Virus record (IMG/VR): IMGVR_UViG_3300031594_000001
Location: 1 to 51,867 of that record
DNA from: a virus
DNA: 51,867 nt
Reading direction: 5' to 3' (one strand)
Shown: positions 14,269-40,800 of the stretch, in pieces
Position numbering within the stretch: the first letter of the stretch is position 1
Layout: each line of letters begins with the position of its first letter
Notes under the pieces: generated by a model
Databases searched by the model: none
The model's input: the letters and a program-made list of their open reading frames with translations, nothing else
Told to the model about the DNA's origin: nothing
Translations under genes and position numbers: made by a program

Positions 14269-17200
14269 CTAAAACATAGTAGCTTTACCACTAAATTGAT
14301 CCGCAAAGTCCATGTATGTATCCCGTAGTTTGGGGTGTATGGATATGCCTTGGAACTTTTTAGACGTATTTTCGGCACGGCTGTTCATAGATTTCTCTAT
14401 AGACTTACCGTTGATGGGCCAATCAGGGTGTTCCGCATTGTACGCAGGTATTTTGTCATAGGCCGCTTGTTCGGCTTCGTTGTCACCGTCTGCTCTGGCC
14501 CTAGCGATTTCATCTAGGATACGCTTGCGTCTGGACTTAGTGCCTTTCTCCATGCTTTTTATTTCAGCATTTAATTCATAGGCCCGAGCCAACTCTGCGG
14601 GTATGAACCCTAGGGCTTGTGCGACTGCGTGTAGAGGATGCACAGGGGCAATGATATCACCTGCTAAGGTTTCGGCCCCACCGTCTTTGTAGAACCGCAC
14701 ACTCTTCATCACGTTACGCGCTGCCGATGGTGCAAAGGCTTCTGCCGCTCTAGCAAACTCACCCGCTGCAAACAAATCAGCCGCCCGATCCATCTGCAAC
14801 GTAATACCTATAGCGGGTCCACCCAACATTTCTACGGCAGTCCATATGGCAGGTTGGTCACGGTCTATCAATGTGTCTCTAAACAACAGATCGGATAACT
14901 GAATACGTGTAGCCACGTTAGTACCTGTTACGTAGTTTACAGCACCCGAGTAGTATCCTTCGCCCGTAACTCTACGCACTATGGATTGCATGGATTCTTC
15001 ATCATCGTCTTTGAGTAGGTTGTAAACCATAGCCGCCGCGCCAAAGAAAGGCACACCGCGCACACCTGACATAAGTGCAGCCGATCCGTATATACCCGCG
15101 AGTTGATAGGCGGCTAGTTTCTTAGCTTCAGCAGACTGACCGACCATTCCCTCTTTTGCCAGTTTATGTAGCAGAGACAGCATGGACACACCGTAACGCT
15201 TATACATAAAGACTACCGACCCGATAGACCCCTGCATTATCTGGGGTGAAGCCGCCGATGCGCTACCACCGTTGGTCATTTCGACCATGTAGAACGCCTT
15301 TTCAGCCGCTTGCTCATACTCAGCATCACTTACAGTACGGTTATCCTTGGCGGCTTGAGCATCTAGTATATCTGCCTCAAGGTTATACGCAGCGGTGAAG
15401 GCTACCTCACGGTTAATCCGCTCTCCGTGGTGCAGCATAAAGCCCGATGCGGCGTTGAACTTTTCCATACCGCCGTTAGTACCGTCTATGTCTAGCATGT
15501 CATAGGCTAGGGTGCGTTTGAACAAACCTAGTCGTTCACCTACACCCACTGCAAATTGCATACGCTTCTTTCGGGGGTCGGTCTCGTTTGCATAGTCGTA
15601 ATTGCTTACAGACCTGTCTGCGGGAGTTCCAGTTACTTCCTGCATTTCCTTGATAGGGTTGCCTTCTGCGTCAACCTTATCGCCGTACACTTCGACCATA
15701 CGCTTGCGACCACTGTTATGAATAAGGCGCATGGCCTCACCTATAGCAGAGGATGTTTTATCGTACCCATACTTAGCACCGTATACAGGGTATACTGTAA
15801 GGGGTATCTGCGAAAGGTTAACCAAAGCGCCAGACACGTTGAACCCTAGCGTCATGTTAAAGCCGATGTTGGTTAGCATTTTAGAAAAGTTACTTCTGTT
15901 GACGCCAGTTCCGCTATCAGCGAAAGATACCAAAGTGTCGTACATATCTCTCATGGCGGGGGTTGTGTTACCCTCTCCACCCGCTTTGTCATAAGCCGCT
16001 TGTAGTTCTACTTTTATTGCGTCGAACTTATTGCCGTACTTCATTTGCACAGCTTGCCTACCCAGCAAGGTCGCACGTTTTGTGGTGGCACGTATAGCGT
16101 CCTCTATGTTACCCAATGTGCCCTTACGAGTACGAAATGACTGCATGTAGGAGGTCTCTGGGATAGTGTTAAGAACTAACTCACCAATTTCGTTTATTAT
16201 TTTGTTGGTAGTTTCTCGCTGTTCTTTAGTGTCGCTAGGGCTGTTATCACGTATCTGTTTTGTAAGCTGCGCGATAAAAGATGCAGGAGGCGCGTTGTTA
16301 AAGTTTACTTCGGATATAGATGCTGCCTCAGTGACGCCTATCTGTGCGTCTATAGCCTCTTCTATATTGGCGTGTTTTTTCTGCCGAACCAACTCAGCCA
16401 TACTAGCCATGAGTTTCTGATTGCTACGTATACCACTACGTACAGCCTCTTGAGTTTCAGACCATGCTCTAGCTCTAGCAGCAGGTGTGGTGAAAGATTC
16501 GGCATACCGCTCAAGATTACCCGTAACTGGATCAACCCCATTGTAGTATATCCACAAGTCTCCTTCACGCTCCAAGGGAGTGTAGGGTTCTATAGTGCCT
16601 TTGGAAGTCAGCTTGTCATAAAAACTCTTCATAACCCTAGCGCGTACAGCACCATCAGGTATGGCTATGGTAAGTCGCTCGTCTACGGCGTTTCTAATGT
16701 CGTTACGTAGGCCACGAAATAGGTTACGCATGGTGGCGTATATACGCACGACTGCGGGGCTAGCGTTCACTAAGGCTTCGTAGTCGCTTCTAACCTGCTC
16801 CCAATTAGCCATTTTCTCAGGGTCTTTGCCATACTTTTTGACTGCGGCAGGGCGGTCAAGCACAGGGTCAACTTCACGGCGTGTAGCTTCGTTCACCATT
16901 CTGTTGAACTGATCCTGCAGTCCTTTGTTATTTTTGCCCCATTGTACTATAGGTAGCAGGGTGTTCTTCAACTCATCAATCTGCTTACCATAGGCTCCGT
17001 TAGCTTCATTAACGGTAGTGTTTAATTTGGTTCCTAGTTCGCCAAAGTATTTCCTAGATATTTCAGCTAAGTAGTGCAGAGGCGTAGCTTGCATTAAGAA
17101 TTTGTTTGCCCCGCCAAACAGCCCAAGGCTCACGTTCTTTGCGGCATCTTCAATCCAAGCTAGGTATCGCGTCTTACCTGCGTTGTTGAAGATAGGCCCA

Positions 17201-20200
17201 TTTGTAATGGCACTGTTTAGGAAGCCGTTAGCGGCGGCGGGTGTCATTAACGCAAGAGAATCCGCATCACGGAACTGTGGGGCAGGGGCCAACATACCTT
17301 CGATCAGGTAGTCTATCTCTGATAGGGCAGAGGTCAAAGGCTTGGGCTGCAAGCCGATCATGCGCCGCACAAAGTTAGTGATAGCATTATATAGACGTTG
17401 TAGGGCGGTCTTACCTTTATGCAGGTCGCCCTTATACACTAGCTGTCCTAGCTTCTCTTGAAACGCTGGATTGGTTAACGCTTCAGAAATAAACTCGTCT
17501 AGGTTTGTAGACCCATACTCAGTATCTAGTACGTCTTTTACATCGTTGAACACATTACGCAGCGCCAATGTGCTAGCAGAGTTCTTAGCCAAGGATGCAG
17601 AAACAGCGGCATGTACCATTTCATGTAAAACGGTGTGCGTGTTCATACCTGATTTAGGGTTTATAGAAATAGTGTTTGTCCTAGGATCAAACTGCCCTGC
17701 CGATGGCGCACCATCCATGTCCACAAGGTCTGGTACGAACACTATCTTGGTAGTACCCGCCATGTCTGCCAGCTTGTTAGCGATCTTAGCCAATTTAGGG
17801 TAGTTCGTACCTTGAGCAATCGCGTACAACGTTTCTTTTAACATACCCGAACCTAAGAAACCCATCGCGCTGGGCGACATAGGATCATCTAGGTATACTA
17901 CACTCTCAGTAGGTAGTGGTTTAAACAGTCCACTTTCTTCTACAAACTTATTAAATGCGGCTTCTGCTTTAGCTTTTTTACTAGCTGTAAACCCTGCTTT
18001 AGATGGGCCTTGCTGTTCAGGTACTGCGCTTACCCTTGCACCCAGCGTTACGCTCGCCGCATTATCTCGCTGGCGATCTGCTTCTGCTTGCGCTTCAAGG
18101 TCTTCTTGAGCCTTTCTAAAAGCTGCTGCTTGAGATTTGTTAGACCCCTCTGCTACATTATCATCAGCAAATGCTTCTTCAAAACCTGCTTGCTTGCTTC
18201 TTTCTGTATCTGCTGTAGCCCTACGTCTAGCTGCAGCTTTAGTGCCTGCTTGAACTTCTATTTCAGCCCTAACCCTATCTTTGTAGTATTTAAAAGTTTC
18301 AGGTTCTAAAAACTCTTCTAACCAATCTTTAGCCGCAAATGCAGCAGGTTTGTTTCTTCCCGCGTTAAACACCTGCTGTTCAACTGACATGCCTGCTTCG
18401 GAAGAAGACTTAGTACTACCATATACTATGTCGTGCGCTAATTCATCTATAGCTAACCCAGCATTTAAAGACACCGCAAAGTATTTCCTAGCCGCTAGTG
18501 CGCTTTTGTATAGTTCTGGATCAGTAAACTTTGCTTTTAATTCTTTAGGCGTGGCTTCTAACAAAAATATAATTTGTTCTTTGTCCGCAATACTTGTTGG
18601 GTCCATATAGTTTAAGCTACGATTACCTGTTTCAGGGTCTATAACATATGCGGCAGCGATAAGGAGTTTGCCATACGTTTTACGGTCAACGGCTGCAGAC
18701 TTATACGTTTTGGGTATGTATTTGTTAATTATAATACTACGTATACGTTCCTGTAGAGTTTTGTTTTCAGCTTTAGTGACGTTATCTCTCGCTTCAACAT
18801 CAGCTATAGGTTCTGCAGTAGGCTCTACAGGTTTAGGAGTGCTATCTACGCCTTTTATACCCGCAGGTACATCTTCCGGTTTTAACCCTCTACCTGCTGC
18901 GCCTACACCTACAGCATCTCGATCAAGGCTTGCCTCTACAGTATCAGGCACAACAGGTTTAGCTTCAGGCTCTACAGCGGATGTGGCCTCGACCTTATCT
19001 CCAGCGGTGCGCGGCTCAACAACAGGTTTAAGGCTGGGTGTAATAGCTCTAACAATGTCAGCGTATGTAGCATTGTCATTAGGTATATCAAAACCTAATG
19101 TTCTAGCGGTGGCTATGTCTTTAGGAAATGCTACGGATTGTATAAACTCCGCAGCTTTAGCACCATTAGTATCTATCTTATCAACTAAGTATTCTTTAAA
19201 AGTACGTAGTCTTGTAGAATCTACAGTAACAGGATCAATAGGGTTAGTTTCTTCTACTTCGACAGTGCCTGTGCTTGTCTCAACACCTTCAACATCACGG
19301 CCTTGATCTGTTTCTGTTTGAGCCTTACTAGCAGCAAGGTTAGCAGCAAGATCAATCTCGCTAGTATCTTCTCCAACCGTAGGTCCAGCGGTGCGCGGCT
19401 CAGTCTTGGCTTTTGCTTTGTCAGCGCGTTCTTGAGCTTTTTTAGCATCTAGTGCAGCTTTATCAGCTTTATTTTTTGCTGTTTTTGCCTCTTTTAAATC
19501 TTTAGCTGCTTCAGTTTTATCAGCCCGTGCTTGAGTTGCATCAGCGCGTTCTTGAGCTTTTTTAGCTTTTGTAGCTGCTGCTTGTGCAACTTTGTCAAAA
19601 GCAGTATTAGCTTTGTTTGCTTCAGCAAAAACTTCATTATCTGCACGTTCCGCAGCAGTAGTAGGGGATTTTGCTTTGTTTTCAGCAAACAGATCAAGCT
19701 GTGTTTCTTTTGGAGCCTTAACAGGTTTAGGTTTAGGCATAGACTCTATAGATTCACGTCTTTCTTTTTCTAAAGGACTTTCTGATTTTATTCTTTCTTC
19801 TCGTAACGGAGCCATAAGTGCTTCGTATTCGGCCAGCTTTTCGGCGTCTGTAGCGTAATCAGTTGTTAACCCGCTAGTTGTTGCAGGTTGAATAGCCCCA
19901 TCTAAATCTAGTTCGTCTTGTGAGTCTACCGCAGGAGGTACGGCATCGGGGTCTACATTTACTATAGGTTCAGGTCTTGGGCCGCGAATACCACCAGCAG
20001 CGCCACCTATTCCAGTACCAAGCAATGCACCGCCGACAAAAGCGTTCTTTAGCTGATCTATGCCCTCTTCATCAAACACTTGATCCATAGGCGCACCGGA
20101 CTGTAGCCGTTCAGCAGCGGTTTGAAACGTCTCGGTAAGAGCTTCAGTCCCACCACCTTTAAACGCTCCACTAAGGATACGTTGTGTAACCTTCTTGCCA

Positions 20201-20913
20201 ACAGCGGTAGGACTAATACCTATAGCTGCCATAGCTTTGAGGCCCAGACGTTCAGCTAAGGCTTGAGCAACAGCGGTGCCAACTGCCGTAGTAAGACTTA
20301 CGTTATCTTCACCTTTAACAGCTTCTTGCGCTTGTATATTCTTACCTGCAAACTCAGGAACTAATCCCGCAGTAAAACCGTAACCAAATCCTGCCATAGT
20401 ACCGGGACCGGGAAGAACTGATCCTGCAATGCCGCCAGCTATACCGCCTTTTAAACCGCTCTCAAGGGACGAACCTGTACCACCTACTAATCCTCCTAGG
20501 TACTCAAGTCCGGTACTAAAGTCGTTTACATCTTGATAACGACCCACAGGACGTTGTGCTATAGATTGTAGAATATTCTCTTGACCAAGCTCTTGTCGAG
20601 CTTCTTCTGCGTAGTCTGTACCGTAATCGGCTAATGCAGCAATTCCAGTTTTCTGACCAACAGTCTCTATTAAGTCGCCAATAGCTTGAGAGCCGCTACC
20701 ACTAGCTCTGCGATAAGCACGACCAATAGCAGTGCCGTCATCTGGCCCTTCTACATCTCCATACTTGCTTTCAAGATCGGCCTTAACAGCAGCCTCTTGA
20801 GTACGAATATATTCAGATATGCGCCCGTATTCTTCATCAGTAGGTACGTCACCTGCAATAATTATAGGATAGCTCTTGCCACTATATGGACCCGGAACAG
20901 ATATCTGACCCAT
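14269..20913 (-). CDS. giant internal virion protein with zinc metalloprotease motif (large polyvalent protein type)
   Basis: A 2214-residue protein, the last gene of the leftward operon. Glycine-zipper hydrophobic stretches occur near residues 140-190 (GGLVGGTGSSLE, GGIAGGIAGS) and 290-310 (GTGIGGAAGG). A long Ala/Lys/Glu coiled coil spans about 400-520, flanked by two copies of EPRTAG. A zinc-protease site HEMVH is at 1097-1101, with E1144 in DEFISEAL as a possible third ligand. The C-terminal third has several hydrophobic helices of the kind seen in large polyvalent proteins. By size, place and membrane-active segments it is probably ejected with the DNA and helps cross the envelope, with the protease acting on wall, virion or host proteins; this role is inferred. 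Confidence 0.82.
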   Translation of the reverse strand: MGQISVPGPYSGKSYPIIIAGDVPTDEEYGRISEYIRTQEAAVKADLESKYGDVEGPDDGTAIGRAYRRASGSGSQAIGDLIETVGQKTGIAALADYGTDYAEEARQELGQENILQSIAQRPVGRYQDVNDFSTGLEYLGGLVGGTGSSLESGLKGGIAGGIAGSVLPGPGTMAGFGYGFTAGLVPEFAGKNIQAQEAVKGEDNVSLTTAVGTAVAQALAERLGLKAMAAIGISPTAVGKKVTQRILSGAFKGGGTEALTETFQTAAERLQSGAPMDQVFDEEGIDQLKNAFVGGALLGTGIGGAAGGIRGPRPEPIVNVDPDAVPPAVDSQDELDLDGAIQPATTSGLTTDYATDAEKLAEYEALMAPLREERIKSESPLEKERRESIESMPKPKPVKAPKETQLDLFAENKAKSPTTAAERADNEVFAEANKANTAFDKVAQAAATKAKKAQERADATQARADKTEAAKDLKEAKTAKNKADKAALDAKKAQERADKAKAKTEPRTAGPTVGEDTSEIDLAANLAASKAQTETDQGRDVEGVETSTGTVEVEETNPIDPVTVDSTRLRTFKEYLVDKIDTNGAKAAEFIQSVAFPKDIATARTLGFDIPNDNATYADIVRAITPSLKPVVEPRTAGDKVEATSAVEPEAKPVVPDTVEASLDRDAVGVGAAGRGLKPEDVPAGIKGVDSTPKPVEPTAEPIADVEARDNVTKAENKTLQERIRSIIINKYIPKTYKSAAVDRKTYGKLLIAAAYVIDPETGNRSLNYMDPTSIADKEQIIFLLEATPKELKAKFTDPELYKSALAARKYFAVSLNAGLAIDELAHDIVYGSTKSSSEAGMSVEQQVFNAGRNKPAAFAAKDWLEEFLEPETFKYYKDRVRAEIEVQAGTKAAARRRATADTERSKQAGFEEAFADDNVAEGSNKSQAAAFRKAQEDLEAQAEADRQRDNAASVTLGARVSAVPEQQGPSKAGFTASKKAKAEAAFNKFVEESGLFKPLPTESVVYLDDPMSPSAMGFLGSGMLKETLYAIAQGTNYPKLAKIANKLADMAGTTKIVFVPDLVDMDGAPSAGQFDPRTNTISINPKSGMNTHTVLHEMVHAAVSASLAKNSASTLALRNVFNDVKDVLDTEYGSTNLDEFISEALTNPAFQEKLGQLVYKGDLHKGKTALQRLYNAITNFVRRMIGLQPKPLTSALSEIDYLIEGMLAPAPQFRDADSLALMTPAAANGFLNSAITNGPIFNNAGKTRYLAWIEDAAKNVSLGLFGGANKFLMQATPLHYLAEISRKYFGELGTKLNTTVNEANGAYGKQIDELKNTLLPIVQWGKNNKGLQDQFNRMVNEATRREVDPVLDRPAAVKKYGKDPEKMANWEQVRSDYEALVNASPAVVRIYATMRNLFRGLRNDIRNAVDERLTIAIPDGAVRARVMKSFYDKLTSKGTIEPYTPLEREGDLWIYYNGVDPVTGNLERYAESFTTPAARARAWSETQEAVRSGIRSNQKLMASMAELVRQKKHANIEEAIDAQIGVTEAASISEVNFNNAPPASFIAQLTKQIRDNSPSDTKEQRETTNKIINEIGELVLNTIPETSYMQSFRTRKGTLGNIEDAIRATTKRATLLGRQAVQMKYGNKFDAIKVELQAAYDKAGGEGNTTPAMRDMYDTLVSFADSGTGVNRSNFSKMLTNIGFNMTLGFNVSGALVNLSQIPLTVYPVYGAKYGYDKTSSAIGEAMRLIHNSGRKRMVEVYGDKVDAEGNPIKEMQEVTGTPADRSVSNYDYANETDPRKKRMQFAVGVGERLGLFKRTLAYDMLDIDGTNGGMEKFNAASGFMLHHGERINREVAFTAAYNLEADILDAQAAKDNRTVSDAEYEQAAEKAFYMVEMTNGGSASAASPQIMQGSIGSVVFMYKRYGVSMLSLLHKLAKEGMVGQSAEAKKLAAYQLAGIYGSAALMSGVRGVPFFGAAAMVYNLLKDDDEESMQSIVRRVTGEGYYSGAVNYVTGTNVATRIQLSDLLFRDTLIDRDQPAIWTAVEMLGGPAIGITLQMDRAADLFAAGEFARAAEAFAPSAARNVMKSVRFYKDGGAETLAGDIIAPVHPLHAVAQALGFIPAELARAYELNAEIKSMEKGTKSRRKRILDEIARARADGDNEAEQAAYDKIPAYNAEHPDWPINGKSIEKSMNSRAENTSKKFQGISIHPKLRDTYMDFADQFSGKATMF

Positions 20914-33927: not shown

Positions 33928-34821
33928 CTAAGCTGCTATTCTTGTCCAGATTGTGTTCGGGTCTGGAACTAAGTTACCCCATGTTGTGTTCGGGTCTGGA
34001 ACTAAGTTACCCCATGTTGTGTTCGGGTCTGGAACTAAATTACCCCACACAGTTACATTTGCTATCTGCCCTGTAGCCAAGACTCCAGTTAGAATTACAA
34101 AAGAGCCTCCAGCAACTGTAACTGATCCTACACTACTTGTACCGAAAACACTAGCAACAGATACACTAGCGCCAGCGGCTACAGTAACATCGTTAGTAGA
34201 TGCAGTACCAGAAACACTGCCAATCGAAAAATTAGCGTCAGCGGTTACAGTAACATCGTTAGTAGATGCAGTGCCTTGCACACTGGCAATCGAAAAATTA
34301 GCGTCAGCGGTTACAGTAACATCGTTAGTAGATGCAGTGCCTTGCACACTGCCAATCGAAAAATTAGCGTCAGCGGTTACAGTAACATCGTTAGTAGATG
34401 CAGTACCAGAAACACTGGCAATCGAAAAATTAGCGCCAGCGGCTACAGTAACATCGTTAGTAGATGCAGTACCAGAAACACTGGCAATCGAAAAATTAGC
34501 GTCAGCGGTTACAGTAACATCGTTAGTAGATGCAGTACCAGAAACACTGGCAACAGATACACTAGCGCCAGCGGCTACAGTAACATCGTTAGTAGATGCA
34601 GTGCCTTGCACACTGCCAACAGATACACTAGCGCCAGCGGCTACAGTAACATCGTTAGTAGATGCAGTGCCTTGCACACTGCCAATCGAAAAATTAGCGG
34701 ACCCGTCAAATTGCAAAATACCTGCAGTGATATCGCCCTCAACCCCTACAGGGATAACTATCAGGTCGCCGCTACCTAAATCGGCAAAGGCGGCTGCTGA
34801 ATATGGTGAGAAACCTAGCAT
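33928..34821 (-). CDS. repeat-containing virion protein (22-residue and 11-residue repeats)
   Basis: A 297-residue protein made mostly of tandem repeats. Eight near-identical 22-residue units (GTASTNDVTV core) and one decayed unit form a regular beta-solenoid-like array. A C-terminal set of three TWGNLVPDPNT units (11 residues) follows, ending in IWTRIAA. The units differ at three sites only: I/V and A/G before SV, S or Q before GTAS, and TADANF, AAGASV or AAGANF after DVTV. The N-terminus (MLGFSPYSAAAFADLGSGDL) is unique. Position between fibre and chaperone genes suggests a fibre or spike spacer. It starts in a TAATG overlap with the upstream chaperone. Confidence 0.8.
   Translation of the reverse strand: MLGFSPYSAAAFADLGSGDLIVIPVGVEGDITAGILQFDGSANFSIGSVQGTASTNDVTVAAGASVSVGSVQGTASTNDVTVAAGASVSVASVSGTASTNDVTVTADANFSIASVSGTASTNDVTVAAGANFSIASVSGTASTNDVTVTADANFSIGSVQGTASTNDVTVTADANFSIASVQGTASTNDVTVTADANFSIGSVSGTASTNDVTVAAGASVSVASVFGTSSVGSVTVAGGSFVILTGVLATGQIANVTVWGNLVPDPNTTWGNLVPDPNTTWGNLVPDPNTIWTRIAA
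33951..34049. repeat. three tandem 33-bp repeats
   Basis: A 33-bp unit beginning TTGTGTTCGGGTCTGGAAC starts at 33951, 33984 and 34017, with the period exact to the base. It encodes the TWGNLVPDPNT repeats of the repeat protein. The copies are almost identical at the DNA level, so slippage or recombination could change the copy number. Confidence 0.9.
34145..34700. repeat. eight tandem 66-bp repeats
   Basis: The anchor ACAGTAACATCGTTAGTAGA occurs at 34181, 34247, 34313, 34379, 34445, 34511, 34577 and 34643, spaced exactly 66 bases. A decayed ninth unit lies just left of 34181. The units encode the 22-residue repeats of the gene at 33928-34821. Variation between units is restricted to two or three alternative blocks that appear in shuffled combinations. 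The array also keeps a long false reading frame open on the plus strand. Confidence 0.95.
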
Positions 34822-38039: not shown

Positions 38040-38696
38040 TTACCCTATTAACGCCCTTGGCTCCCCATCACGATAACTATCTCTCTTACTAGCGGCATCT
38101 ATCCTTGATAGTTGCCTTATCGCCTCTTCGTATCGCGCCTGATAATTCTGCATTATATCAGGATCACCTTTCATAAAGGTATATGCTTCTAAAAGAGACC
38201 CATACAACAGCACAGTATCTGCGTTGTCACCTAACCAAGAGGTTGCTGTGGTGACAATAGACGGCGGTTCAAAATAATAATGCAATTCAGTAACAAAGTT
38301 ACCGTTAGGTGTTGGCCCTAGTATAAAATGCCCCGGCGAGTTTGTACTTGCAACATCTCCATCAAACTGTGCATAGTATCTAGGTAGCCCTGTTGTGGCT
38401 GAAGATGGATAGGCTTCCCTTATAAAATTAACATCTCTGTCTAAAAGATAACTATAGTCACCGCTACCATCAACCACCGCTAGTGAAGCCACTGCTAGAA
38501 AGTCGCTCGGCCTTGCTAAATATTGATTACCATCATTCATATTGGACGAAACGTTTTTTCTAACTTCGGGTATAGTAACAGTACGAAATATACGTTGCTC
38601 CGCTTGCTGGACAAACGTAGGGATCATAGAGACGAATGTTGCTTCTGTGTTCTCTGTATAGTCTTTTATAGCTTGCGTAAGCTCAGTATAGTTCAT
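38040..38696 (-). CDS. head-tail adaptor / tail tube-like protein
   Basis: A 218-residue protein with the layout of podovirus head-tail adaptors (T7 gp11-like): an N-terminal helix (TEATFVSMIPTFVQQAEQRI), a beta core (RPSDFLAVASLAVVDGSGDY; HFILGPTPNGNFVTELHYYF) and a C-terminal helix (LLYGSLLEAYTFMKGDPDIM, then YQARYEEAIRQLSRI). The same order of parts is seen in the 228-residue protein at 40797-41483, so there are two related adaptors. It would sit between portal and tail. Coupled to the upstream gene by TAATG. Confidence 0.72.
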   Translation of the reverse strand: MNYTELTQAIKDYTENTEATFVSMIPTFVQQAEQRIFRTVTIPEVRKNVSSNMNDGNQYLARPSDFLAVASLAVVDGSGDYSYLLDRDVNFIREAYPSSATTGLPRYYAQFDGDVASTNSPGHFILGPTPNGNFVTELHYYFEPPSIVTTATSWLGDNADTVLLYGSLLEAYTFMKGDPDIMQNYQARYEEAIRQLSRIDAASKRDSYRDGEPRALIG

Positions 38697-39373
38697 TACT
38701 CGGCCTCGCTGTACAAATTATCAAATATCTGCGTTACATCTAGCGTGTAGTCTAAATCAGATTTGGAATAATGTATATGCTGTGATGGCTTAAAGTCTGG
38801 TGCGCCTTCACCTGTCTCAAACCACGCAGGGTGTGTTACCCGTACCCTGTTGTTGGGTAACGCCACTATATTGCCTGTCCACTTACCCGCATCTAGTAGC
38901 TGTAGTACATGCGCTTGTTTATGCTGTGCAGGGTCATCTGCTACATCTGTGTCGGTATAGTCTACAGTAAATAGGTATTTAGCAGGAAAGAACCCTCCTG
39001 CAATCTTTGCCATCCACGGACAAGGTGACGCCCTATCAAGCGTGTATACCGCATGTGTATGGGAAGGGCAGTCCCAAGGCTGGGCTTCGTGAACTGCCAT
39101 ACCCTCGGGCCACTCTTCAAATGACTCATCGGCCACCAGAGCAGTTATGGGCATCCTAGCCCACATAGCCCCACCGTGTACGTTAGCTTCGCCTGTATCG
39201 TCCGCCTCACACCCCGTAAAGATAATCTGAAAACTCAGGCATCTGTTAGGCATTGTAGTGACAGCGATAACCATAGCATGTAGAAATTCGCCGTGGTAAC
39301 GCTCATGGTTGACCGTATACTCACGACGAACCCAACACTTAAAGTGTGGTATATTGCTCTGCAGATAAGGCAT
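38696..39373 (-). CDS. conserved marine-phage protein of unknown function
   Basis: A 225-residue protein rich in His, Trp and acidic residues (HGEFLHAMVIAVTTMPNRCL, GCEADDTGEANVHGGAMWAR, and MAVHEAQPWDCPSHTHAVYT, which has a histidine/cysteine cluster that might bind metal). No enzyme motif is certain. It lies between a basic repeat protein and a tail adaptor; the whole set is coupled by TAATG overlaps. It is probably a virion or morphogenesis protein. Low functional certainty. Confidence 0.72.
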   Translation of the reverse strand: MPYLQSNIPHFKCWVRREYTVNHERYHGEFLHAMVIAVTTMPNRCLSFQIIFTGCEADDTGEANVHGGAMWARMPITALVADESFEEWPEGMAVHEAQPWDCPSHTHAVYTLDRASPCPWMAKIAGGFFPAKYLFTVDYTDTDVADDPAQHKQAHVLQLLDAGKWTGNIVALPNNRVRVTHPAWFETGEGAPDFKPSQHIHYSKSDLDYTLDVTQIFDNLYSEAE

Positions 39374-39723
39374 TAGCCGTTTTTACGAAAGCGTTGAGGA
39401 CGTGCTGCACCGCTACCACGAGCAAACGTACCGCCGCCTTTACTCATTTTCGCCATCTTGCCACCTTTAGCGTAACCTTTTTTCTTCATCATGCCGCCGC
39501 CCATCTTCTTAGCTACAGCACCGCCTTTAGCCATGCCTTTTTTCTTCATCATGCCGCCGCCCATCTTCTTAGCTACAGCCCCACCTTTAGCCATTTTTCC
39601 TTTGCCATCAGCAGCAAAAGCAGGAACCATTTTTCCAGCTTTGTTTTTAACCATTTCTAATTTACCAGCAGCCTTCATCTTCCGTACACCGCCCTTAGCG
39701 GCACCTTTTTTCTTCATAGCCAT
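39373..39723 (-). CDS. Lys/Met/Gly-rich repeat protein
   Basis: A 116-residue, extremely basic protein. The ATG at 39723 is chosen because AGGAG lies 8 bases upstream; an upstream TTG is less likely. The sequence is low-complexity and rich in K, M, G and A, with a tandem 20-residue unit MAKGGAVAKKMGGGMMKKKG repeated almost exactly, and other AKGG blocks. Such proteins probably bind DNA or RNA, or pack in the virion. It contains the MAxGG motif found in other virion proteins here. The stop overlaps the next start (TAATG). Confidence 0.72.
   Translation of the reverse strand: MAMKKKGAAKGGVRKMKAAGKLEMVKNKAGKMVPAFAADGKGKMAKGGAVAKKMGGGMMKKKGMAKGGAVAKKMGGGMMKKKGYAKGGKMAKMSKGGGTFARGSGAARPQRFRKNG
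39481..39594. repeat. 60-bp tandem repeat, two copies
   Basis: The unit starting TTTCTTCATCATGCCGCCGC begins at 39481 and again at 39541, with two mismatches and the second copy tapering off after 39594. It encodes the repeated 20-residue unit of the Lys/Met/Gly-rich protein and could expand or contract by slippage. Confidence 0.9.
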
Positions 39724-39765
39724 GTCCAAGTCTCCTATGGTGTGTTAGCCGTACCGTCCGTTAAG

Positions 39766-40416
39766 TTATACTATTGTTATGTTTCCAACCATACCGCTGT
39801 GGTTGGTACATTGATATACTAAAGAAGAGTCAGAAGGCTCGTGCGGAACGATGAACTGTGTTAACCCTGTAGTAGAATTATAGTTGTCAGTTACACCCGT
39901 TGTGAAAGCAGAACCACCTGACGATACTCTTATCTGCAAAGGATGACTGCCTACATTAGCCGTATTATTTAAAAGATAAGTATGACCTTTGTAGAAAGTA
40001 AAGTTTGGATTGTTGCCAGATGTAGCTCCGGGGCCAGTAAATGTATAGGCAGTTGATCCGTTTACACCTGCAGTGTATTTAGTCACAGGTCCAGTTGTCT
40101 CATCATTTAGCCTAGTCCACGCTCCACCATGTGCGAAATATAACCCGCCTGTTGCGTGAACATGCGCTACTGCGCCATGATATGTACCCGCGCTAGGTAA
40201 GTCGCTTAAATTGGCGTAATAAAAAACAATCTTATTGGCTCCAGAACTCACATCAATAAGACCGTTACCGTCTATTATATCTGTGAGCGCAGAGCCGTTC
40301 CCAATAGCAGCATATATCTCAGTAAAGTTTGCGTTTATTTTAGTGGCACCAGAACGAAGGGTATCCCCACTACCATCGTTTGCGCTACTTCCTATCCCTA
40401 CTGCCTGCAAAGTCAT
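39766..40416 (-). CDS. virion fibre-type protein with C-terminal cupredoxin-like domain
   Basis: A 216-residue two-part protein. The N-terminus (VGIGSSANDGSGDTLRSGAT, then KINANFTEIYAAIG) is the attachment domain of marine phage neck or fibre proteins. The C-terminal 95 residues resemble a cupredoxin: a beta sandwich (YTFTGPG, NFTFYKGHTYLLNN) with the ligand pattern H158 ... C203-x2-H206-x2-M209 (YQCTNHSGMVG), exactly the type-1 copper set His, Cys, His, Met. It may bind copper on the particle, or the fold may only be structural. The start follows GAGGG. Confidence 0.8.
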   Translation of the reverse strand: MTLQAVGIGSSANDGSGDTLRSGATKINANFTEIYAAIGNGSALTDIIDGNGLIDVSSGANKIVFYYANLSDLPSAGTYHGAVAHVHATGGLYFAHGGAWTRLNDETTGPVTKYTAGVNGSTAYTFTGPGATSGNNPNFTFYKGHTYLLNNTANVGSHPLQIRVSSGGSAFTTGVTDNYNSTTGLTQFIVPHEPSDSSLVYQCTNHSGMVGNITIV

Positions 40417-40419
40417 GTT

Positions 40420-40800
40420 CTATCCCTCGTCAAAAGTATCTGTTGTTGAATCTAGCGTAACAGCCGTACTGTCAAATCTTGGAGCAGTTCCCGCAAGTAC
40501 ACTAATGGATACCGTTCCAACTTGACCTGTCAGGTATAAGAGAGGGCCCCCTACAGGGTTCCAACCACCAATTCCTCGCCCCGGCTCATAATCCGGTCTG
40601 GGGTTAAGTAGAGATTGAGGGTCAACAACCCGAATACGCCCCAAAAAGTTCTGTGGTTGATCTGGATCAACTACGTCTCTACCAACACGAAAACCAGTAC
40701 GGTGTCCATCTTTGAACTCCCACACAAGCTCGTTTAAAGGGTATCTAAACCCTGTTCGGTCACATATACCATATGCGTACTTACCAGACGCGTAGCTCAT
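40420..40800 (-). CDS. conserved marine-phage virion protein
   Basis: A 126-residue protein. The N-terminal half carries a conserved-looking pattern (YAYGICDRTGFRYPLNELVW, then GHRTGFRVGRDVVDPDQPQN and RVVDPQSLLNPRPD). The C-terminal half is beta-rich and ends in an acidic tail (TTDTFDEG). Found in this spot, beside head-tail adaptors, it may be part of the head-tail joint, but I cannot name a family. Its ATG overlaps the stop of the upstream adaptor (ATGA). Confidence 0.7.
   Translation of the reverse strand: MSYASGKYAYGICDRTGFRYPLNELVWEFKDGHRTGFRVGRDVVDPDQPQNFLGRIRVVDPQSLLNPRPDYEPGRGIGGWNPVGGPLLYLTGQVGTVSISVLAGTAPRFDSTAVTLDSTTDTFDEG

Follow-up and report, generated by a model that had tools for sequence, protein, structure and literature searches.

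A cupredoxin domain with a predicted type-1 copper site at the C-terminus of a putative tail protein of marine phages

The DNA analyzed here, called the window below, comprises the 51,867 bases of the virus record IMGVR_UViG_3300031594_000001 (IMG/VR) and has genes for terminase, portal, major capsid protein (MCP), an SU10-type adaptor, and several tail fibers. The portal and terminase were nearest to those of the pelagiphages HTVC023P/HTVC027P and their relatives, at about 40-46%. The SU10-type adaptor points to the head-tail connector of a short-tailed phage, and the window proteins tested included neither a sheath nor a tube protein, so the window phage is probably a short-tailed marine phage. 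The gene of interest, here named cup216, lies in an accessory slot between two neighbors (Table 1). No counterparts of cup216 were found in the structural regions of HTVC023P and CRP-901 that were examined.

Table 1 Position of cup216, its parts, its predicted copper ligands and its neighbors in the window
Feature	Position	Strand	Evidence
Upstream neighbor: SU10-type adaptor, 228 aa	40797..41483	minus	PF24175, E 7e-13
Upstream neighbor: 126-aa conserved protein between cup216 and the adaptor, bordering the accessory slot on one side	40420..40800	minus	
cup216: 216-aa protein with gp9/10-type N-terminus, short middle, and C-terminal cupredoxin domain	39766..40416	minus	
T4 gp9/gp10-like N-terminal (tail/baseplate attachment) domain, residues 4-60	40237..40407	minus	Pfam PF07880
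Middle segment, residues 61-106, with YFAHGGAW motif common to phage tail-fiber families	40099..40236	minus	phrog_9729
Cupredoxin domain, residues 107-216	39769..40098	minus	phrog_677, AF2, Foldseek
His158 codon, first predicted copper ligand, HPL/HPF motif	39943..39945	minus	Aligns with amicyanin His53; conserved
Cys203 codon, predicted thiolate ligand	39808..39810	minus	Alignment and conservation
His206 codon, second predicted His ligand	39799..39801	minus	Alignment and conservation
Met209 codon, predicted axial ligand	39790..39792	minus	Alignment and conservation
Downstream neighbor: 218-aa virion structural protein, bordering the slot on the other side	38040..38696	minus	phrog_2941, E 4.5e-26

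The same slot also contains a 225-aa protein (window 38696-39373, minus strand), whose sequence identity over 48 relatives was about 80% although its synonymous sites were saturated; its C102, H151, and H155 were invariant in 46 sequences. The labels of this protein conflict, as PHROG 3704 is called "ferredoxin" and the GenBank homologues are called "PurM" or "ferredoxin". It was considered as a redox partner of cup216 and rejected on these conflicting labels and on the lack of a visible ferredoxin Cys pattern. Small Lys/Gly-rich ORFs with MKKKGMAKGG-type repeats recurred beside cup216, both in the window (39373-39729, minus strand) and in the slots of the related loci L405, L421, L443, and L464. 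Elsewhere in the window, a 297-aa ORF (33928-34821, minus strand) has repeats of about 22 residues (SVSGTASTNDVTVAAGA) followed by three WGNLVPDPNTT repeats, and a 2214-aa ORF (14269-20913, minus strand) matches PHROG "DarB-like antirestriction" over its C-terminal third (E 2e-52).

An earlier note, made from the letters of this DNA, had placed a type-1 copper ligand set (His158, Cys203, His206, and Met209) in the C-terminal beta-sandwich of a protein with a fiber-type N-terminus. The ORF was found on the minus strand with 216 codons for amino acids, and all four residue numbers were correct. The fiber-type N-terminus could be named specifically, since residues 4-60 matched the Pfam family T4_gp9_10_N (PF07880) above its curated gathering cut-off (26.4 bits vs 25, E 8.6e-6), and phmmer matched the N-terminus to the solved T4-type gp10 chains 9f4a, 2fl8, and 5hx2. 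Residues 66-106 matched phrog_9729 (E 3.9e-10), and the segment 61-106 was the best-conserved part of cup216 among close relatives. The C-terminal half, residues 107-216, matched positions 301-409 of the profile of PHROG 677, annotated as "baseplate wedge tail fiber protein connector" (E 5.2e-45). Cys203 is the only Cys of the protein, and Met209 is the only Met apart from the start.

The structure of residues 107-216 was predicted by AlphaFold2 with an alignment of 67 sequences, and the model had 8 strands with a pLDDT of 92.9 and a pTM of 0.86, which bears out the proposed beta-sandwich; in a full-length run the N-terminal half was poorly modelled. When the domain model was compared with the PDB by Foldseek, the best 50 matches listed were all cupredoxin-fold copper proteins, including nitrite reductase, rusticyanin, two-domain laccases, AcoP, plastocyanin, amicyanin, and pseudoazurin (best E about 1e-4, TM-scores about 0.45-0.5), and the full-length model also returned cupredoxin-fold copper proteins, namely laccases and rusticyanin. 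In BFVD, two predicted "beta-sandwich proteins" from Marseillevirus and Pithovirus metagenome genomes (A0A481YVH3 and A0A481Z7Q7) matched the domain weakly in structure. A profile search of the PDB reached amicyanins with E-values near 1e-3, and blue-copper or copper nitrite reductase chains made up almost all of its 26 matches. Profile-profile alignment by hhalign against an amicyanin and nitrite reductase pair reached E 3.7e-6 and paired H158/C203/H206/M209 one-to-one with amicyanin His53/Cys92/His95/Met98; the C-x2-H-x2-M spacing of cup216 is that of the amicyanin loop.

Single sequences were less easily recognized. The window protein alone had no match in NCBIfam or to PF00127, so it falls below the curated copper-family cut-offs, and among other members queried singly, 6 of 10 matched the NCBIfam amicyanin family and 3 of 10 matched Pfam Copper-bind, with weak E-values. 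These scores would suit an immunoglobulin-like or cupredoxin-derived adhesin that binds no metal and keeps the motif for folding only, but the structural neighbors among the best 50 listed were all copper proteins, and a lone Cys in a protein of extracellular type also argues against it.

The conservation of the ligands bears on the same question. Domains were collected from 80 close IMG/VR relatives, diverged searches, and annotated phages, giving 448 distinct domains. H158, Y201, C203, H206, and M209 were invariant in the initial alignment of 74 sequences, a set chosen without degenerate copies. For a fair test, loci that had been fetched with the C..H..M pattern or with queries lacking the ligands were omitted, and across the remaining 129 distinct domains the four ligand columns, named beforehand in the earlier note, ranked 1, 3, 4, and 5 of 102 (random-column P about 1e-6), the other top place being taken by Y201. 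Among 383 distinct domains in which the four sites were covered, 364 had each of H158/C203/H206 and 19 had none of them, with no domain keeping only one or two; among domains ending before the Met column, three retained one of these residues (QYH twice and HSD once). The number of independent losses is far below 19, because many of the ligand-less copies are related to one another. The axial Met was lost alone, with H/C/H kept, three times, being replaced by Gln in two domains and by Lys in one; an axial ligand is expected to allow such changes. A Cys other than the ligand occurred in 10 of 369 domains. The ligand-less copies lay mostly downstream of an intact copy within one polypeptide. Such sandwich copies, with H, C, and H lost together, were seen in long fiber proteins at L161, L192, L213, L186, L354, and other loci.

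The coupled loss of H/C/H together with a freer axial position argues for a type-1 copper site, as a purely structural motif would not predict this pattern. The all-or-none behavior of the three strong ligands and the rank of their columns among the most conserved make the metal-free adhesin very unlikely. Alignment and structural model thus support well that residues 107-216 are a genuine cupredoxin domain, of the same build as the blue-copper proteins in bacteria and plants, whose predicted mononuclear type-1 copper site is intact and has an amicyanin-like loop.

The domain shares with amicyanin and other single-domain cupredoxins (PF00127, TIGR02657) the beta-sandwich, the ligand order H...C-x2-H-x2-M, and the signature Y-x-C-T-x-H-x-x-M-x-G. 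It differs from amicyanin in being fused to phage tail modules, in having no signal peptide of its own, and in that its copper is predicted; the first His stands in HPF/HPL rather than PHN, the ligand loop has variable small residues where amicyanin has Pro/Phe, and the sequences diverge by more than 80%. The best Foldseek neighbors were cupredoxin domains of multicopper oxidases, copper nitrite reductase, and rusticyanin, but the phage domain has a single site without type-2/3 copper ligands, and it is not an oxidase.

Among deposited phages the domain was found in 322 records, nearly all of them marine Synechococcus/Prochlorococcus phages, mostly as the C-terminus of gp9. Cyanophage gp9 (PHROG 677) shares both the C-terminal domain and a gp9/10-like N-terminus with cup216, but it has about 400-500 aa and belongs to contractile-tailed phages, while cup216 has 216 aa and belongs to a probably short-tailed phage. 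In IMG/VR, the domain was also present inside many long tail-fiber proteins, in C-terminal, internal, or tandem positions (two copies in some). Two genes upstream of the cup216 homologue, one relative encodes a second cupredoxin-domain protein (L070:4511-5515, plus strand), which has 335 aa and contains YYCINHSGM. When 84,980 bacterial and archaeal species were scanned for the motif, just 15 stretches came up, among them several evident phage contigs, and plasmids had no match to the domain. In two Bacteroidetes contigs (one a MAG) and one Phycisphaerales MAG the domain occurred in apparent cellular surface proteins, and such cells may have supplied the module or received it. These proteins (L308, L314, and L310) are large and of surface type, two of them beside collagen-like GPTGPTG repeats.

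Blue-copper proteins of cyanophages have been described as plastocyanin PetE, a separate small gene of 324-369 bp that serves intracellular photosynthesis (PMC3037559), and cup216 could by analogy be a phage-borne petE-like auxiliary metabolic gene acting within the infected cell. PetE shares the blue-copper fold with the cup216 domain but stands alone, whereas our domain is fused to gp9/10-type and other tail-fiber modules and lies among structural genes, an architecture that contradicts such a role. We saw no separate-gene form here, and the nearest solved sequence relatives were amicyanins and not cyanobacterial plastocyanin, so an intracellular role is highly improbable.

The earlier note had also stated that such motifs have no assigned role in marine phages, and this held. 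The label carried by the families is "baseplate wedge tail fiber connector", and Pfam, NCBIfam, and PHROGs do not name the C-terminal domain as a copper module, although InterPro-type databases may already tag some carrier proteins as cupredoxin-like. Among the open-access papers searched, a set with few subscription papers or preprints, none links "cupredoxin" with "tail fiber" or discusses cupredoxins for cyanophages, the lone co-mention concerning Borgs.

The gp9/10-type N-terminus, the position among tail genes, and the PHROG tail family make it very likely that the cup216 product sits on the tail or virion. S-CREM2 ORF123, for which virion proteomics recorded 55 peptides (PMC10665884), was considered as proof of virion location and rejected, as ORF123 does not carry the domain. 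The site would very probably be occupied by copper in the virion. The fold, the aligned profiles, the conserved ligands, and their joint loss thus uphold the cupredoxin and type-1 copper part of the earlier reading, and its virion part is strongly indicated by gene content and domain family. The roles put forward in the earlier note, binding of a host surface or metal-uptake receptor and redox protection, are candidates only, so the reading as a whole was supported in part.

To follow cup216 among phages, we took the 80 loci in IMG/VR that matched it best. Median amino acid identity over these loci was 88% for cup216 (biased upward, because the loci were ranked by cup216 similarity), 65% for the capsid (MCP), 40% for the adaptor, and 44% for the downstream structural protein. 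The pS of cup216 was 0.66 (0.7-0.8 for its neighbors) with near-saturated synonymous change, and its pN was 0.069, so cup216 is under strong purifying selection. A recent transfer as the only cause of the high identity was ruled out, as synonymous sites differed by 54-76% in the listed loci, one identical contig aside; cup216 may well have been exchanged among phages at an earlier time. When loci with enough flank were picked by capsid similarity instead, cup216 was absent in 28 of 29, and the slot was nearly closed or filled by small unrelated ORFs. This ruled out cup216 as a phage core gene and makes it an accessory cassette in this podovirus group.

The best explanation of the whole, to which we give a probability of roughly 0.5 on sequence and model grounds, is a tail-anchored cupredoxin with an intact site that works as a copper-loaded module for adsorption. 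The gp9/gp10-type N-terminal domain would anchor the protein to the phage tail, and the cupredoxin domain would therefore be displayed on the virion, outside the cell. Copper would fill the type-1 site of this virion-borne domain, and it would lock and stabilize the loop region, exposing a metal-bound His at the tip. The copper-loaded domain might then serve as a rigid head or distal adsorption module that touches the host surface, which is the least certain step, and phages would acquire or lose the module as a cassette, depending on their host or habitat. The repeated fusion of the domain to unrelated tail-fiber and baseplate proteins favors a tail role.

Receptor-binding tips usually diversify. 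The cup216 protein varies less than the capsid, which suits a fixed partner or cofactor better than an arms race, and this counts against an adsorption tip. The low diversity of the sequence also keeps a close rival in play, a purely structural clip in which copper or another soft metal only stabilizes the tail domain in seawater and is not directly involved in host recognition or redox chemistry. Strong purifying selection suits such a clip, and so do ligands kept across very different carriers and positions (C-terminal, internal, and tandem); the loop around the exposed His has small residues that vary, which leaves no surface apparent for a universal partner. But the ligand-less beta-sandwich persists beside intact copies in the same proteins, so the fold is not strictly metal-dependent, and on balance we regard the clip as possible but rather unlikely.

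Known cupredoxins are soluble electron carriers or domains of oxidases, and the full type-1 ligand set with amicyanin loop spacing would also suit a redox module, either for electron exchange or Cu/superoxide detoxification at the host surface, or for metal delivery or uptake via a host metal-uptake receptor. The replacement of the axial Met by Gln in two sequences with H/C/H kept resembles the axial-ligand tuning known from stellacyanin. But the variable loop residues beside the exposed His leave no conserved partner-docking patch evident, no redox partner was identified, and an extracellular protein that is probably present in very few copies per particle makes bulk chemistry implausible. 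A published precedent for metal on tails is the iron bound by HxH motifs in the tail fibers of T4 (gp37) and Alteromonas phage R22Y (PMC11705849), to which a redox or uptake module would be the copper counterpart (Ferrojan/Trojan-horse idea). The HxH fibers share with cup216 a metal on a tail protein (predicted here) and include those of marine phages, but they have octahedral His sites in a trimeric fiber, while cup216 has a cupredoxin fold, other ligands, and another expected metal. We consider a redox role unlikely.

For the preferred tail-anchored adsorption module, a stronger form would be that marine phage tails hold type-1 copper as an infection cofactor that directly contacts a component of the host surface, and this we put forward tentatively, as doubtful on present evidence. 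The adsorption cassette would then be shared by short-tailed phages and T4-like cyanophages, as a copper counterpart of the iron Trojan-horse idea. With a cupredoxin module recurring in the tail and baseplate proteins of abundant ocean viruses, phage particles would contain a defined copper site. A protein of roughly 320 deposited phage genomes, hitherto only a "tail fiber connector", would thereby receive a functional name for its C-terminus, and C203, H158, and H206 would be concrete residues bearing on metal-dependent adsorption in culturable cyanophages.
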